Origin: Paracidovorax wautersii
Lineage (GTDB): Bacteria > Pseudomonadota > Gammaproteobacteria > Burkholderiales > Burkholderiaceae_C
NCBI RefSeq assembly: GCF_031453675.1
Contig: NZ_JAVIZX010000001.1
Location: forward strand, 4,362,001-4,426,000
DNA length: 64,000 bases
Reading direction: 5' to 3'
Positions 21,832 through 62,637 of this stretch are shown piece by piece (position 1 is the stretch's first letter; each line of letters opens with the position of its first letter). The translations under genes were made by a program, and so were the position numbers. Under the pieces are notes generated by a model that saw nothing but the letters and a program-made list of their open reading frames with translations, had not been told where the DNA came from and searched no databases.

Positions 21832-21891
21832 ATCAAGCATTTTTGACCTCCAGCGCTTACTGCATAAGCGCCAGCAGCTATCAATTTCAAA
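21832..21891 (+). repeat. short palindromic repeat, copy in the kynB-kynU gap
   Basis: One of the best-preserved copies of the family: ATTTTTGACCTCCAGCGCTT, then ACTGCATAAGCGCCAGCAGC, then TATCAATTTC. The core AGCGCTTA-N5-TAAGCGC is palindromic and is flanked by GACCTCC on one side and AGCTATCAA on the other. It ends about 14 bp before the kynU start codon. Confidence 0.75.
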
Positions 21892-21904
21892 GTACCACAC
21901 CACC

Positions 21905-25679: not shown

Positions 25680-25743
25680 TTTGCTATATTATTTATAGCT
25701 AATGGCGATTGATCCATGGGCGCCAGAGAACGATTGGGCTTGA
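25680..25743 (-). repeat. short palindromic repeat, copy at the adenine deaminase 3' end
   Basis: TATAGCTAATGGCGATTGAT, CCATGGGCGCCAGAGAACGA and TTGGGCTTGA follow the family pattern in reverse orientation: the AGCTA side, a GGCG...CGCC core and the CAAAT-GGC side, partly decayed. It lies just 3' of the minus-strand gene's stop codon (25748). Confidence 0.55.
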
Positions 25744-37942: not shown

Positions 37943-37999
37943 GGGTCAAATTGGCTTCTGGCGCTTATCTGGTAAGCGCTTGTAGCTATCATTTTGAAT
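37943..37999 (+). repeat. short palindromic repeat, copy upstream of the flavin reductase gene
   Basis: TCAAATTGGCTTCTGGCGCT, TATCTGGTAAGCGCTTGTAG and CTATCATTTTGA form a complete copy of the family: CAAAT-GGC side, GCGCTTA...TAAGCGC core and AGCTATCA side. It lies between the start of the flavin reductase gene and the large palindrome. Confidence 0.78.
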
Positions 38000-38020
38000 A
38001 GTGCTGGGTGATTACTTCTC

Positions 38021-46502: not shown

Positions 46503-46673
46503 CGCGGCCCCGCCCTGCCGCACGTGAGGGCGCGCGGGCATTCTCCTTGCATGCCCCATAGCGCAGCAGGCATCCCCGCTATACGCTCACGCGGATGGAC
46601 TTGCCTCGCAATGCGCGTACCCTCTTGCCTAGAAACCATTGAACCACCCGCCCGCCCCACGGGCCGCCCCTGC

Positions 46674-48341
46674 ATGACCACGCCTTCCCGTCCGCTTCGC
46701 TTCATCCGCCGTGGCCAACCCGTCACCCTGCACGGCGTGCCGCCCGACCGCACGCTGCTGGAAGTGCTGCGCGAAGACCTCGGCTCCACCGGCACCAAGG
46801 AAGGCTGCGGCGAAGGCGACTGCGGGGCCTGCACCGTGGTGCTGGGCGAGGCGCGCGGTGGCCAGGTGCACTACCAGGCGGTCAACAGCTGCATCCGGCT
46901 GGCGCATTCGGTGGACGGCATGGCCCTGTGGACCGTGGAGGACTTGGCCGAAGACCCGCTCATCCAGCCCGCGGCGCAGGCCGCCGCGGCGGATGCCCAA
47001 GGCGCAGCGCAGGGCGGCACTCCCATCCACCTGCACCCCGCGCAGGAGGCCATGGTGCAGTGCCATGGCTCGCAGTGCGGCTTCTGCACGCCCGGCTTCG
47101 TGATGAGCCTGTTCGGGATGTACCAGAAGTACGTGGCCCCCACGCTCCCCGCTGTGCGTGGTTCGCTGCCCCCCGAGGGGGCGCAACCCGCCTTGGGGCG
47201 GCCCGGCGGCGGGTTGACTGCAGCCCCCACGCTCACTGCTGCCGGCACAGACGCGCCGCGGGCCTGCCCGCCCCAGGCCATCACCCGCGCGCTGGCCGCC
47301 GAGGAGCTGTCGGGCAACCTGTGCCGCTGCACCGGCTACCGGCCCATTCTGGACGCCGCGCAGCAGATGCAGCACCTGCCGCCCATGCAGGTGCAGGAAG
47401 AAATTCTGCTACAACAAATGGAGCTACTCGCGCTTACCCCGCAAGCGCCAGAGGCCGATTTGGCTTATATCGCACCCACCACCCTGCCGGCGCTGCTGGC
47501 GGCCCGCAGCGCCTTCCCGGATGCGCAGATCGTCGCCGGCGCCACCGACGTGGGCCTGTGGATCACCAAGCAGCACCGCCGCTTCGCCCGCATGCTTGAC
47601 GTCACCCGCGCGCAGGAGCTGCGCCGCGTGCGCGAAGCCGACGGCGCGCTGGTCATCGGCGCGGCAGTGTCGCTCAGCGATGCCTTCGCCGCCCTGCGCC
47701 AGCACTGGCCGCAGCTGCACCGCTTCCACGCACGGTTCGCTGGGCTGCCGGTGCGCAATTCGGGCACGCTGGGCGGCAACGTGGCCAATGGCTCGCCGAT
47801 CGGCGATTCCATGCCGCTCCTGATCGCGCTGGGTGCCAGCGTGGTGCTGGCCAGCGTGCGCGGCGAACGCGCGCTGCCGCTGGAAGACCTCTACACCGGC
47901 TACCGCCAGAACGTGATGGCGGCCGACGAACTGCTGGTGCGCATCGCCGTCCCCCTGCCCGGCGCGGGCGAGACGATGGCGGCGTACAAGGTGTCCAAGC
48001 GCACGGACGATGACATCTCGGCCGTCTGCCTGGTGCTCAACCTCGCCATCGACGGCGGCACCGTGCAACGCGCACGCATCGGCGCAGGCGGGGTGGCCGC
48101 CACGCCGGCCCGCGCCCGGCAGGCCGAAGCCGCTCTCGTCGGCCAGCCCTGGACGGCGGCTACCGTGGAGCGCGCCGCTGCCGCGCTGCAGGCCGAGTTC
48201 CAGCCCATCAGCGACATGCGCGCCAGCGGCGCCTACCGCCGCACGGTGCTCGGCAGCCTGATGCAGCGCTTCTGGCTGGAGAGCCAGGGCGGGCCGCAGC
48301 CGGCGTCGCTTGACCAGTTTGCGCTGGAGGTGGTGGCATGA
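46674..48341 (+). CDS. xdhA: xanthine dehydrogenase small subunit (2Fe-2S and FAD), with repeat-derived insertions
   Basis: XdhA passes electrons from the molybdenum centre through two Fe-S clusters to FAD. All cluster Cys motifs are present: GCGEGDCGACTVV, CHGSQCGFCTPGFVMS and NLCRCTGYRP; the FAD domain has GATDVGLWITKQ and RNSGTLGGNVANGSPIGDS. At 555 residues it is longer than the usual roughly 480-500. One insertion (about residues 155-190, bases 47141-47225) lies between the second and third Cys motifs and reads as a GC-rich repeat (CCCCCCGAGGGGGC). A second block (244-265) is a copy of the short palindromic repeat. The frame stays open. The gene overlaps xdhB (ATGA). Confidence 0.93.
   Translation: MTTPSRPLRFIRRGQPVTLHGVPPDRTLLEVLREDLGSTGTKEGCGEGDCGACTVVLGEARGGQVHYQAVNSCIRLAHSVDGMALWTVEDLAEDPLIQPAAQAAAADAQGAAQGGTPIHLHPAQEAMVQCHGSQCGFCTPGFVMSLFGMYQKYVAPTLPAVRGSLPPEGAQPALGRPGGGLTAAPTLTAAGTDAPRACPPQAITRALAAEELSGNLCRCTGYRPILDAAQQMQHLPPMQVQEEILLQQMELLALTPQAPEADLAYIAPTTLPALLAARSAFPDAQIVAGATDVGLWITKQHRRFARMLDVTRAQELRRVREADGALVIGAAVSLSDAFAALRQHWPQLHRFHARFAGLPVRNSGTLGGNVANGSPIGDSMPLLIALGASVVLASVRGERALPLEDLYTGYRQNVMAADELLVRIAVPLPGAGETMAAYKVSKRTDDDISAVCLVLNLAIDGGTVQRARIGAGGVAATPARARQAEAALVGQPWTAATVERAAAALQAEFQPISDMRASGAYRRTVLGSLMQRFWLESQGGPQPASLDQFALEVVA
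47141..47225 (+). repeat. GC-rich repeat-like insertion inside xdhA
   Basis: The tract holds the palindrome GCCCCCCGAGGGGGC and CCTTGGGGCGGCCCGGCG, the sort of sequence otherwise seen between genes here (compare GCGGGGCGGCCCTTGCTCGG at about 21736-21755). In XdhA it adds about 30 residues, rich in Pro, Gly and Ala, where other XdhA proteins have only a few. Assignment to the repeat family is by resemblance only. Confidence 0.5.
47405..47466 (-). repeat. short palindromic repeat inside xdhA
   Basis: Read on the minus strand: AAATCGGCCTCTGGCGCTTG, CGGGGTAAGCGCGAGTAGCT, CCATTTGTTG. It keeps the GGCCTC side, the GCGCTT...AAGCGC core and the TAGCT side of the family. Translated in frame it gives part of QMELLALTPQAPEADLAY in the linker between the Fe-S and FAD domains. 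Confidence 0.7.
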
Positions 48342-50791
48342 ACCAGCGCGACACCCTGCCCGGCGCCGCTTCCACGCCGCCCGCCCCCTTGAGCCGCGAT
48401 GCGGGCGACGACCCGGTGGCCGCCCGCGCCGACGCCCACGGCGCCATGGGCCGGCATGCCCCGGCCCCAGCCTCAGCCCACGTGGACCGTGCCCCGGTGC
48501 GCGAGCAATCCATGGGCCGCTCGCAGTTCCACGAAAGCTCACGCGCCCAGGTCGCCGGGGCGGCGCACTACATCGACGACCAGCCCGAAGTGAAGGGCAC
48601 GCTGTACGCGGCACCCATCCTCTCCACCGTGGCCCACGGCCGTCTCAACGGCGTGGACCCGGCCGCCGCACTGGCCCTGCCCGGCGTGCGGGGCCTGGTG
48701 CTGGCGGGCGACGTGCCGGGCGACCGCATGCTGGCCGCCTTCGCGCACGACGAACCCGTGTTTGCCGAAGGCACGGTGCAGCACATCGGCCAGGTCATCG
48801 GTCTGGTGGTGGCCGACTCGGTGATGGCCGCACGCCGGGCTGCGCGCCTGGTGCAGCTCGACATCACGCCGCTGCCTGCCGTGCTGACGGTGCAGCAAGC
48901 GCTGAAGGAAGAGCACTTCGTGCTGCCCCCCGTGTTCGTGCGGCGCGGCGACGCGCAGGCGGCGCTCGCCAGTGCCCCGCACCGCCTGCAGGGCACGCTG
49001 GAGGTGGGTGGGCAGGAGCACTTCTACCTAGAAGGCCAGATCGCCTACGCCATTCCGTTGGAGCAGCGCCAGTGGTGCATCCACTCCAGCACCCAGCACC
49101 CGGGCGAGGTGCAGCACTGGGTGGCGCACGCGCTCGGCATCGACAACCACGCCGTGCGCGTGGAGTGCCGGCGCCTGGGCGGCGGCTTCGGCGGCAAGGA
49201 GACGCAGGCCGGCCACCTGGCCGTGTGGGCCGCCGTGGCGGCGCACAAGTTCGGCCGCGCCGTCAAGCTGCGCCTGGACCGCGACGACGACTTCATGGTC
49301 ACCGGCAAGCGGCACCCGTTCGCCTATGAATGGGACGTGGGCTTCGACGGCACCGGCCGCATCACGGGCTTGAAGCTCACGATGGCGGCCAACTGCGGCT
49401 TCAGCGCCGACCTGTCCGGCCCCGTGGCCGACCGCGCGGTGTTCCACAGCGACAACGCGTACTTTCTTGAACACGTGGATATCGCCTCGTACCGCTGCAA
49501 GACGCACACGCAGAGCCACACGGCCTTCCGCGGCTTCGGTGGCCCGCAGGGCGTGATCGCCATCGAGACCATCGTGGGCGACATCGCCCGCACGCTGGGG
49601 CTGGACGCCTTCGACGTGCGCATGCGCAACCTGTACGGCACCACCGAGCGCAACGTCACCCACTACCAGATGCCGGTGGAGGACAACATCCTGCATGAGA
49701 TGCTCCCGCAATTGGAGCAGTCCTCCCAGTACCGGCAACGGCAAGCGGCCATTGCGGCATGGAATGCGGCCAACCCGATCCTGAAGCGTGGCATCGCCAT
49801 CACGCCGGTCAAGTTCGGCATCAGCTTCACGGCCACGCTGTTCAACCAGGCCGGCGCGCTGGTACACGTGTACACCGACGGGAGTGTGCAGGTGAACCAC
49901 GGCGGCACGGAGATGGGCCAGGGCCTGCACACCAAGGTGGCGCAGATCGTGGCCGACGAGCTGGGCGTGCCGTTCGAGCGCGTGCTGGTCACCGCCAGCG
50001 ACACCAGCAAGGTGCCCAACGCCAGCGCCACGGCCGCATCGAGCGGCACCGACTTGAACGGCCGCGCGGCGCAATTCGCTGCACGCAACGTGCGCGACAA
50101 CATTGCGTCGTTCGTCTGCGGGCAGGACGGCTGCGGCGCCGGCTCCATCCAGTTCGTGGGCGGCAAGGTCATCTCGCCCCACCGCGAGCGCGACTGGGCC
50201 GACGTGGTGAAGGAGGCCTACGCCAACCGCATCCAGCTGTGGAGCGACGGCTTCTACCGCACGCCCAAGATCCACTACGACAAGGCCACGCTCACCGGCC
50301 GGCCGTTCTACTACTTCGCCTACGGCGCGGCCTGCACCGAGGTGGCCATCGACACCCTGACGGGCGAGAACCGCGTGGTGGCCGTGGACATCCTCCACGA
50401 CGTGGGCCGAAGCCTGAACCCCGCCATCGACATCGGCCAGATCGAGGGCGGCTTCGTGCAGGGCATGGGCTGGCTCACCACCGAGCAGCTGGTGTGGAAC
50501 GACAAGGGCCACCTGGCCACGCACGCGCCCAGCACGTACAAGATCCCGGCCACAGGCGACATTCCCGAGCACCTGCGGGTGCAGCTCTGGCACGAGCCCA
50601 ACCGCGAGGACAACGTGGGCGGCAGCAAGGCCGTGGGCGAGCCGCCGTTCATGCTGGCCATCAGCGTGTACGAGGCCCTGCGCAATGCGGTGGCGGCCGG
50701 GCGCGGGGGCGCGGCGGATGCGCCCGTGCAGCTCGTGGCGCCAGCCACGGCCGAGAACGTGCTGCGCGCGCTGGGCCGCCTGGCCGGCTGA
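48338..50791 (+). CDS. xdhB: xanthine dehydrogenase large (molybdopterin) subunit
   Basis: XdhB holds the molybdenum cofactor and oxidises hypoxanthine and xanthine to urate. The 817-residue protein has an Ala/Pro-rich start, then the Moco segments GQEHFYLEGQ, LGGGFGGKETQ, AFRGFGGPQG, EMGQGLHTKVAQ, NASATAASSGTDLNG, and the catalytic Glu in KAVGEPPFMLA. It overlaps xdhA by four bases. The cofactor-insertion gene xdhC, often next, is not in the window: an unrelated chloride channel gene follows after 141 bp. Confidence 0.96.
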   Translation: MNQRDTLPGAASTPPAPLSRDAGDDPVAARADAHGAMGRHAPAPASAHVDRAPVREQSMGRSQFHESSRAQVAGAAHYIDDQPEVKGTLYAAPILSTVAHGRLNGVDPAAALALPGVRGLVLAGDVPGDRMLAAFAHDEPVFAEGTVQHIGQVIGLVVADSVMAARRAARLVQLDITPLPAVLTVQQALKEEHFVLPPVFVRRGDAQAALASAPHRLQGTLEVGGQEHFYLEGQIAYAIPLEQRQWCIHSSTQHPGEVQHWVAHALGIDNHAVRVECRRLGGGFGGKETQAGHLAVWAAVAAHKFGRAVKLRLDRDDDFMVTGKRHPFAYEWDVGFDGTGRITGLKLTMAANCGFSADLSGPVADRAVFHSDNAYFLEHVDIASYRCKTHTQSHTAFRGFGGPQGVIAIETIVGDIARTLGLDAFDVRMRNLYGTTERNVTHYQMPVEDNILHEMLPQLEQSSQYRQRQAAIAAWNAANPILKRGIAITPVKFGISFTATLFNQAGALVHVYTDGSVQVNHGGTEMGQGLHTKVAQIVADELGVPFERVLVTASDTSKVPNASATAASSGTDLNGRAAQFAARNVRDNIASFVCGQDGCGAGSIQFVGGKVISPHRERDWADVVKEAYANRIQLWSDGFYRTPKIHYDKATLTGRPFYYFAYGAACTEVAIDTLTGENRVVAVDILHDVGRSLNPAIDIGQIEGGFVQGMGWLTTEQLVWNDKGHLATHAPSTYKIPATGDIPEHLRVQLWHEPNREDNVGGSKAVGEPPFMLAISVYEALRNAVAAGRGGAADAPVQLVAPATAENVLRALGRLAG

Positions 50792-60633: not shown

Positions 60634-62637
60634 GTGACCGCCGAACTTTCCTCTTCCCCGCCCGCCCCCGCCCGCCGCCCCATCCGCGACCTGCCCGACG
60701 AACTCATCAGCCAGATCGCCGCGGGTGAAGTGGTCGAGCGCCCCGCTTCCGCCGTGCGCGAGCTGGTGGACAACGCCCTCGACTCCGGCGCCACCCAGAT
60801 CACCGTGCGCCTGCTGGCCGGCGGCGTGCGCCTGATCGCCGTGGAGGACGACGGCTGCGGCATTCCGCAGGAAGAGCTGCCCGTGGCGCTGCGCCGCCAC
60901 GCCACCAGCAAGATCACCAACCTGCACGACCTCGAATCGGTGGCCACCATGGGCTTTCGCGGCGAGGCGCTGGCGGCCATCGCCTCGGTGTCCGAGACCG
61001 CCCTGCTCTCGCGCCCGGCGCACCAGGCCAGCGCGTTCCTGCTGGATGCCCGCAGCGGCGAGCTGCGCCCTGCCGCCCGCAGCCAGGGCACGACGGTGGA
61101 GGTGAAGGAACTGTTCTTCTCCACCCCCGCGCGCCGCAAGTTCCTCAAGACCGACGCCACCGAGCTGGCCCACTGCGTGGAGGCCGTGCGCCGCCACGCG
61201 CTGTCCCGGCCCGACGTGGGCTTCGCGATCTGGCACGAGGGCAAGCTGGTCGAGCAGTGGCGCGCCACGTTGGCCCCCGGCACCGAGCCCTCGGACGAGG
61301 CGCTGCAGGAGGCGCTGGCACGCCGGCTGGCCGACGTGCTGGGCGAGGACTTCATCCGCGAGTCGGTGCCCGTGCGGCACCGCTCCGGCGCCGTCACCGT
61401 GACGGGCCGCGCCGGCCTGCCCGATGCCGCCCGATCGCGCCCCGACCAGCAGTTCTGCTACGTGAACGGCCGCTTCGTGCGCGACAAGGTGCTCACCCAC
61501 GCCGCGCGCAGCGCCTACGAGGACGTGCTGCACGGCCAGAAGCAGCCGGTGTACGCGCTGTACGTGCACATCGACCCGCTGCGGGTGGACGTGAACGTGC
61601 ACCCCACCAAGATCGAGGTGCGCTTTCGTGACAGCCGCGAGGTGCACCAGGCCGTGCGCCACGCCGTGGAGAACGCCCTGGCCGTGCCCCGCGCGCAGGC
61701 GCTGGCAGCTGCCGCCGAGGCGGTGCCGGCCCCTGCGGCCGGATTTGAGTCAAATCAGCCTCCAACGCCCGTCTGGCAAGCGCAGTCAGCTATCAAATTT
61801 GATGATCGGGTCGGACACAAGGTGTCCGATCTGCAGGCCTTGTGGGGCAGCCCGGCGGAGCCGGCCGTTGCCTCTCCGGCCGCCCTGCCTCCCGCGCTGG
61901 CGCAGAACGGCGGATCCACCGGTGCGGTGGTGGCCCCCTCCGGCAGTGGGGCGCCAGCCTTGTCGCCCATGCCCGCCGGGGCAGGCCCGGCGGTTGCGTG
62001 GGATGCGGCCCGTGCGCCTGCGCCCTCTGCGCAGGCCGCCGACGGCGCTGCCTGGCCCCTGGGTCGCGCCGTGGCGCAGATCCATGGCGTCTACATCCTG
62101 GCCGAGAACGCCCAGGGCCTGATCGTGGTCGACATGCATGCCGCGCACGAACGCATCGTGTACGAGCGCCTGAAAGCCCAGGTAGACGACGGCGCCCGCA
62201 TCGCCAGCCAGCCGCTGCTGATCCCCGCCACCTTCGCCGCCACCCCCGAAGAAGTGGCCACGGCGGAATCGCAGGCCGACACACTCGATCTGCTGGGCCT
62301 GGAGATTTCACCCTTCTCGCCCAAGACGCTGGCCGTGCGCGCCGTGCCCACCACGCTGGCCCAGGGCAACCCGGTGGAGCTGGCGCGCAGCGTGCTGGCC
62401 GAGCTGGCCGCGCACGACGCCAGCACCGTGGTGCAGCGCGCGCGCAATGAGATCCTGGGCACCATGGCCTGCCACGGCGCCGTGCGCGCCAACCGCAAGC
62501 TCACGCTGGACGAGATGAACGCGCTGTTGCGGCAGATGGAAGTCACCGACCGCTCCGACCAGTGCAACCACGGCCGCCCCACCTGGCGCCAGCTCAGCAT
62601 GAAGGAGCTGGACGCGCTGTTCCTGCGCGGACGCTGA
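60634..62637 (+). CDS. mutL: DNA mismatch repair protein MutL with a repeat-derived linker segment
   Basis: MutL couples MutS mismatch recognition to strand incision. The 667-residue protein has the ATPase motifs ISQIAAGEVVERPASAVRELVDNALDSGA (Glu and Asn kept), DDGCGI and MGFRGEAL, plus QFCYVNGRFVRDK. After a variable linker comes the C-terminal dimerisation domain, with QIHGVYILAENAQGLIVVDMHAAHERI. Residues about 371-390 read through a short palindromic repeat copy. No endonuclease DQHAxxExxxE motif is seen at its usual place (DMHAAHERIVYE instead), as in other non-endonuclease MutL of gamma/beta-proteobacteria. GTG 60634 is taken as start, just after a TAGAAT sequence that resembles a -10 hexamer. 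Confidence 0.94.
   Translation: MTAELSSSPPAPARRPIRDLPDELISQIAAGEVVERPASAVRELVDNALDSGATQITVRLLAGGVRLIAVEDDGCGIPQEELPVALRRHATSKITNLHDLESVATMGFRGEALAAIASVSETALLSRPAHQASAFLLDARSGELRPAARSQGTTVEVKELFFSTPARRKFLKTDATELAHCVEAVRRHALSRPDVGFAIWHEGKLVEQWRATLAPGTEPSDEALQEALARRLADVLGEDFIRESVPVRHRSGAVTVTGRAGLPDAARSRPDQQFCYVNGRFVRDKVLTHAARSAYEDVLHGQKQPVYALYVHIDPLRVDVNVHPTKIEVRFRDSREVHQAVRHAVENALAVPRAQALAAAAEAVPAPAAGFESNQPPTPVWQAQSAIKFDDRVGHKVSDLQALWGSPAEPAVASPAALPPALAQNGGSTGAVVAPSGSGAPALSPMPAGAGPAVAWDAARAPAPSAQAADGAAWPLGRAVAQIHGVYILAENAQGLIVVDMHAAHERIVYERLKAQVDDGARIASQPLLIPATFAATPEEVATAESQADTLDLLGLEISPFSPKTLAVRAVPTTLAQGNPVELARSVLAELAAHDASTVVQRARNEILGTMACHGAVRANRKLTLDEMNALLRQMEVTDRSDQCNHGRPTWRQLSMKELDALFLRGR
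61744..61803 (+). repeat. short palindromic repeat inside mutL
   Basis: TTTGAGTCAAATCAGCCTCC, AACGCCCGTCTGGCAAGCGC and AGTCAGCTATCAAATTTGAT show both outer sides of the family very clearly (CAAATCAGCCTCCA and AGCTATCAAATTTGA); the core is partly changed. Translated, it encodes part of the variable linker of MutL. The local base composition is richer in AT than the flanking coding sequence. Confidence 0.78.

Follow-up and report, generated by a model that had tools for sequence, protein, structure and literature searches.

The xdhA gene in the window (by which we mean the whole 64,000-nucleotide stretch of the Paracidovorax wautersii genome analysed here) contains two palindromic blocks and raises the question of where they come from and whether they are read as protein. 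A sequence-only reading of this DNA took both for repeat-derived insertions, the first of them at an unexpected place close to an Fe-S cluster ligand. We followed both blocks through this genome, the genus and the family. In our view, block 1 is, with a probability of roughly 0.85, an insertion of R1, a non-autonomous palindromic element of ~84 bp that preserves the reading frame, survives in genes as loop peptides and changes in number by whole units.

The two blocks in xdhA

The following features are referred to below (window coordinates).

46674..48341, + strand: xdhA, xanthine dehydrogenase small subunit (2Fe-2S, 2Fe-2S, FAD), 555 aa; from TIGR02963, Pfam and the structure model.
47136..47264, + strand: inserted segment (block 1), 129 nt or 43 codons, APTLPAVRGSLPPEGAQPALGRPGGGLTAAPTLTAAGTDAPRA; from an alignment of 25 XdhA sequences, loop lengths and the AlphaFold2 model.
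47136..47212, + strand: R1 core, a palindromic repeat unit like the Betaproteobacterial repeat element (BRE), sense, LPPEG frame; model R1, E 6e-11.
47223..47245, + strand: truncated second R1 unit in tandem, start-to-start distance 87 nt; direct repeat D4.
47406..47466, + strand: R2 (block 2), second dispersed palindromic repeat, translated as LLQQMELLALTPQAPEADLAY; 71.4 bits, E 4e-15.
48338..50791, + strand: xdhB, molybdenum subunit by position and sequence, 817-aa ORF, context only; from the ORF list.

The xdhA reading frame is uninterrupted and is followed directly by the intact xdhB frame. Its product scores 556 bits against TIGR02963 (curated cut-off, 467) and has the Pfam domains Fer2, Fer2_2, FAD_binding_5 and CO_deh_flav_C. 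All eight Fe-S cysteines (C45, C50, C53, C73, C135, C138, C217 and C219) are invariant in an alignment of 30 XdhA sequences, and the earlier statement that cysteine ligands and frame are preserved was therefore correct. An AlphaFold2 model of the subunit (mean pLDDT, 79.7; pTM, 0.81) matches XdhA of Rhodobacter capsulatus (2w3r/1jro) with a TM-score of 0.85, normalised by target, and the XDH fold is retained in the model despite the insert. XdhA with the insert presumably still works.

The GC-rich palindromic tract described between the Fe-S cysteine motifs is real and belongs to the R1 family. Its 77-nt core scores 84.8 bits against the R1 model in a search of the window and is 91 to 92% identical to R1 copies in unrelated genes by BLAST. 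The nearest copy (91% identity, same frame) lies within a FemAB-like gene at position 4084450 of this genome, where a full and a partial unit are arranged as in xdhA. The addition of residues was also seen rightly, although the block comprises 43 of them (residues 155 to 197) and not about 30. These 43 codons are missing from XdhA in 16/16 genus relatives. The loop from QCGFCTPG to NLCRCTGY, that is, from the CxxC helix to the CxC helix, has 73 residues here and 30 in all of these relatives, so that the length comparison proposed earlier identifies block 1 as extra sequence. Among the genomes examined, the R1 insert in xdhA is unique to this one. No Rfam family matched positions 46600 to 48400 at E values up to 1, and the single-sequence folding energies of both blocks are ordinary compared with dinucleotide shuffles (z about −1).

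The same loop is variable in the Fe-S domain of xanthine dehydrogenases and aldehyde oxidases. In 80 named relatives it has 26 to 50 residues (mode, 30), and a relative from another genus (L018) has 55, including an unrelated Pro-rich stretch, which indicates that the site tolerates length. Long unrelated extensions in homologues, the observation that was to speak for an ordinary loop, thus do exist (50 to 55 residues); they are shorter than the 73 residues found here, whose additional sequence derives from a dispersed repeat. Residues 162 to 196 are modelled as a disordered loop (pLDDT < 50) between helix 139-154 and helix 205-211. Although the insert is near Fe-S ligands in sequence, it would join the protein at the distal end of a helix of 16 residues, at a distance of ~24 Å as estimated from helix length, and its placement appears less surprising in the model than in the sequence. 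Hence, the tolerated in-frame insertion stands, and the surprise about its site is reduced by the model and by the variable loop lengths of homologues.

Block 2 has a different history. It is a full-length copy of R2, of which this genome contains at least 147 (150 candidates were scored), and the palindromic repeat reported before the FAD domain is thus confirmed. That it is an inserted block is not: the linker has 63 residues with R2 and a median of 65 without it, and R2 occupies the identical xdhA position in other Comamonadaceae (L068, 66 bits; L071, 49; L077, 38; L076, 34; L036, 31). With no gain in length and several genera sharing it, a second insertion in this strain was rejected, and R2 in xdhA is better described as an old, shared replacement of linker sequence without added length. 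R2 is mainly extragenic; among its best 30 copies only one is in a gene, namely, the copy in xdhA. In two genera (47406-47466; L068:729-789), the linker copy is close to the genomic consensus, perhaps by gene conversion. Further R2 copies of 24 to 50 bits are found in the window at 21835-21895 (−), 37943-38004 (−), 61747-61807 (−), 25681-25741 (+) and 1615-1676 (−). Another copy (L047:1933-1993, about 344727-344787 of this genome) is close to the only Y1_Tnp (RAYT-like) gene of the genome (E 8e-6). R2 may be the REP of this RAYT-like protein, with a chance proximity of about 10% as estimated from copy density.

Spread of R1 and its place in genes

A covariance model built from ten copies, together with retrieved genome stretches, gave the genome-wide counts. 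R1 is present in 16 copies in this genome, where the block 1 core itself has 18 BLAST matches, i.e., 17 further places, in 17/17 genomes of the genus (1 to 25 copies each) and in 66 of the 150 family genomes searched. The unit has a core of 76 to 79 nt, a spacing of mostly 81 to 87 nt and a GC content of 0.67 to 0.88. In 102 distinct copies, standard pairs fill 92.5% of the pair cells. Changes on both sides affect 146 cells, compared to 41.5 in shuffles, and slid controls give much lower values; these double-sided compensatory changes indicate that the hairpins are maintained. A literature search with the R1 sequence string found no match. One member of the genus (G010; 25 copies; L221-L237, L271) is unlike its relatives in that most copies are outside genes and have a lower GC content; its R1 family has possibly expanded recently.

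The main point beyond the earlier reading is that numerous further genes, in this genome and across the genus, contain R1 in frame. We called a copy in-gene by codon statistics on both flanks and an open element, with family matches, independently of the genome annotation. By this measure, 12 of 13 arrays (14 of 16 copies) in this genome have flanks that are coding in one frame on both sides, without a stop, and so do 53 of 85 unique arrays in the genus, which differs clearly from the one in-gene copy among the best 30 of R2 (Fisher p 1e-8). In a genome this dense in coding sequence, in-gene placement is no more frequent than chance would give; what is unusual is the lack of any avoidance of genes, together with the selection of frames. 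As judged from Pfam and NCBIfam matches, the hosts in this genome are acetoacetyl-CoA synthetase (two sites), a spermidine synthase of the PRK03612 type, the FemAB-like protein, an RND adaptor, a heavy-metal P-type ATPase, AmgK, RecG, an RNB ribonuclease, SsuD and XdhA; an HI0933-like protein was added by homology to L186/L189. Glycine dehydrogenase, UvrA, AcrB-type pumps, methionyl-tRNA formyltransferase (Fmt), ValRS, RecQ and threonine synthase are hosts in relatives. From sequence, R1 thus appears to be inserted in frame in xdhA and in at least nine other enzyme or transport genes.

Where orthologues of RecG, RNB, HI0933-like, SsuD, AmgK, the P-type ATPase and FemAB were found in three relatives (G004, G006 and G014), they lack R1. 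For RecG, RNB, HI0933-like and SsuD, comparison at the DNA level shows that the net insertion amounts to precisely 84 nt, or 28 codons. In spermidine synthase, the same site holds two units in this genome and a single unit in G006; at one acetoacetyl-CoA synthetase site, the number is one in this genome, two in G014 and zero in G004. Because the counts differ between species at the same site, units are gained or lost whole. The inserts are between conserved motifs: in RecG after DEQH and before SATPIPRT, in AmgK after HRDFxxxNLM and before GVLDFQDA, and in the P-type ATPase before MVGDGVNDAP. Furthermore, alignments to solved structures of RecG, SsuD and an AmgK-like kinase are interrupted where the insert lies.

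Several species have insertions at the same site in the HI0933-like, AcrB-type, Fmt and spermidine synthase genes. Since many in-gene insertions are common to species, those are not recent. Target-site duplications were not recognisable at R1 sites against the divergent orthologues. An assembly artefact or a pseudogene was rejected, as relatives sequenced independently have insertions at the same sites and no frame is broken. A large array is in an AcrB-type RND pump gene (L239:2512-3008; G001:C28:272511-273007), where six units follow each other in frame in exact 84-nt steps and add roughly 168 residues; ten genomes of the genus have R1 at this pump site, with one to six units.

Reading frames and the proposed origin

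Each of the six frames of R1 is free of stops in 65 to 73 of 74 copies. The 53 in-gene arrays include shared insertions, and frame use was therefore computed on 23 independent gene sites. In sense orientation, the LPPEG frame is used eight times and the other two frames never; in antisense orientation, AP.GGS is used 12 times, PLGGQ three times and PPRGAA never (p 3e-6; Monte Carlo, 1e-5). The used frames are rich in Pro, Gly, Ala and Ser, the unused ones in Cys, Trp or Arg. All 15 spacings of tandem units in genes are divisible by three, compared with 6 of 12 outside (one spacing, 85 by nhmmer and 84 by cmsearch, was taken as 84). That only three of six nearly stop-free frames are used implies, as far as sequence can tell, a filter on the peptide at the protein level, and R1 is probably translated as part of its host proteins. 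An orientation bias was dropped as a candidate: the antisense excess of 41 versus 12 arrays shrinks to 15 versus 8 independent sites (p 0.21).

We propose that a full unit, being a hairpin-forming sequence of 28 codons that is almost stop-free in six frames, would neither shift nor truncate the frame into which it inserts. The insertions that survive in genes would be those read as Pro/Gly/Ala/Ser-rich, presumably disordered loop peptide, and selection would keep the copies that serve as flexible linkers in loops. Units would then duplicate or be deleted in tandem by whole steps of 84 to 87 nt, via recombination or slippage. In xdhA, and in this lineage alone, one full and one truncated unit would have added 43 residues to the CxxC-CxC loop of the second 2Fe-2S domain. 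The model takes R1 to be mobile and its peptide to be made, both of which we infer.

Four other explanations have to be weighed against this model. According to the first, slippage or drift produced residues 155 to 197 within a low-complexity loop that tolerates change, and the likeness to other loci reflects base-composition bias. The variable loop length among relatives would fit, up to the unrelated Pro-rich loop of L018, but the high identity of the core to copies in unrelated genes, the covarying palindrome and the 84-nt empty sites elsewhere do not; as a source of the block 1 sequence, loop extension is refuted and has next to no probability left, although the tolerance of the site is still true. 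R1 might also be untranslated. Ribosomes bypass the mobile bypassing elements of yeast mitochondria, and GC-rich covarying hairpins within coding sequence could in the same way be bypassed, or be removed from mRNA or protein. However, a skipped element needs neither a length rule nor a frame preference, and since multiple-of-three lengths and preferred frames are both seen, we regard bypass or removal as very improbable.

A less remote idea is that the units have been domesticated, as a linker or as a DNA or RNA hairpin with a selected function, e.g., an mRNA hairpin that tunes expression. Consistent with it are the same-site insertions kept across several species and the preservation of the hairpin by compensatory changes; it is nonetheless improbable, as R1 is patchy among orthologues and the hairpin loop encodes a freely varying peptide (APSGGS/APLGGS/APPGGS). 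Finally, R1 could be a REP or REPIN mobilised by a RAYT-like Y1 transposase. Like these, it is a short, dispersed, hairpin-forming palindrome, it occurs in tandem, and each of the 17 genomes has exactly one Y1_Tnp gene. REP elements are extragenic by definition, whereas R1 is mostly in genes; no R1 was found within 1.5 kb of the Y1_Tnp gene in the five genomes examined, which ties no transposase to R1, and its copy number ranges from 1 to 25 beside a single such gene per genome. R2, which behaves more like REP and has one copy near the Y1_Tnp gene of this genome, fits slightly better. RAYT as the mover of R1 was rejected for lack of linkage, and the REP/REPIN explanation as a whole is unlikely.

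Relation to known repeats and meaning

R1 is likely the published BRE, as matched by description and not by sequence. BRE are 75 to 91 bp long and GC-rich (69%), with tandem units separated by few or no bases; their copy number varies between strains, and they occur in Comamonadaceae including Acidovorax, Delftia and Polaromonas (Hot et al. 2011, PMC3110155). R1 agrees in unit size, high GC content, tandem arrangement and variable copy number (2 versus 1 versus 0 between species), and it is likewise a repeat of Comamonadaceae, in all 17 genomes of the genus and with few copies in Acidovorax. In A. citrulli AAC00-1, four BRE were reported (PMC3110155), and the R1 model finds four copies in P. 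citrulli DSM 17060; in Polaromonas JS666, the model finds 8 compared with 29 reported BRE. BRE are usually in intergenic regions, with some copies entirely within coding sequences (PMC3110155), whereas nearly all R1 copies of this genome are in genes, a difference of tendency and not a strict criterion; in G010, most arrays are intergenic. New relative to the BRE paper are the in-frame rule, the choice of frame, the 84-nt empty sites and the host genes.

In its behaviour, R1 resembles the Rickettsia palindromic elements (RPE). As far as the summary in PMC10969869 of Ogata et al. (2000, 2002) describes them, RPE are palindromes of about 150 bp in AT-rich genomes that lie in frame in unrelated protein genes and are read as protein. 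R1 is also palindromic, in frame within unrelated ORFs and empty in orthologues, a likeness of behaviour for which we claim no homology; with 84 bp, a high GC content and tandem expansion, it differs from the RPE of that summary, which have another host and composition. We lean toward the view, though with considerable reserve, that the Comamonadaceae harbour a coding palindrome of 28 codons, GC-rich and free of stops, which invades conserved housekeeping genes (RecG, RecQ, RNase, tRNA synthetase, efflux pumps and XdhA) and there places disordered linkers of expandable length beside catalytic motifs. It would be selfish DNA that builds protein as RPE do, of a second lineage independent of them, and its hosts would be free-living bacteria whose genomes are large.

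For the family, R1 explains odd loops in proteins of Comamonadaceae, and a gene with a GC-rich palindromic tract need be neither a pseudogene nor the product of an assembly error. Repetitive DNA that is translated within working proteins is rare in bacteria, and R1 is probably a case of it. In-frame translated palindromes are best known from Rickettsia, where an AT-rich genome, an intracellular life and relaxed selection could be blamed; their probable presence in GC-rich Comamonadaceae suggests a more general route from repetitive DNA to protein sequence, and sister species with zero, one or two units in one enzyme make this route testable.
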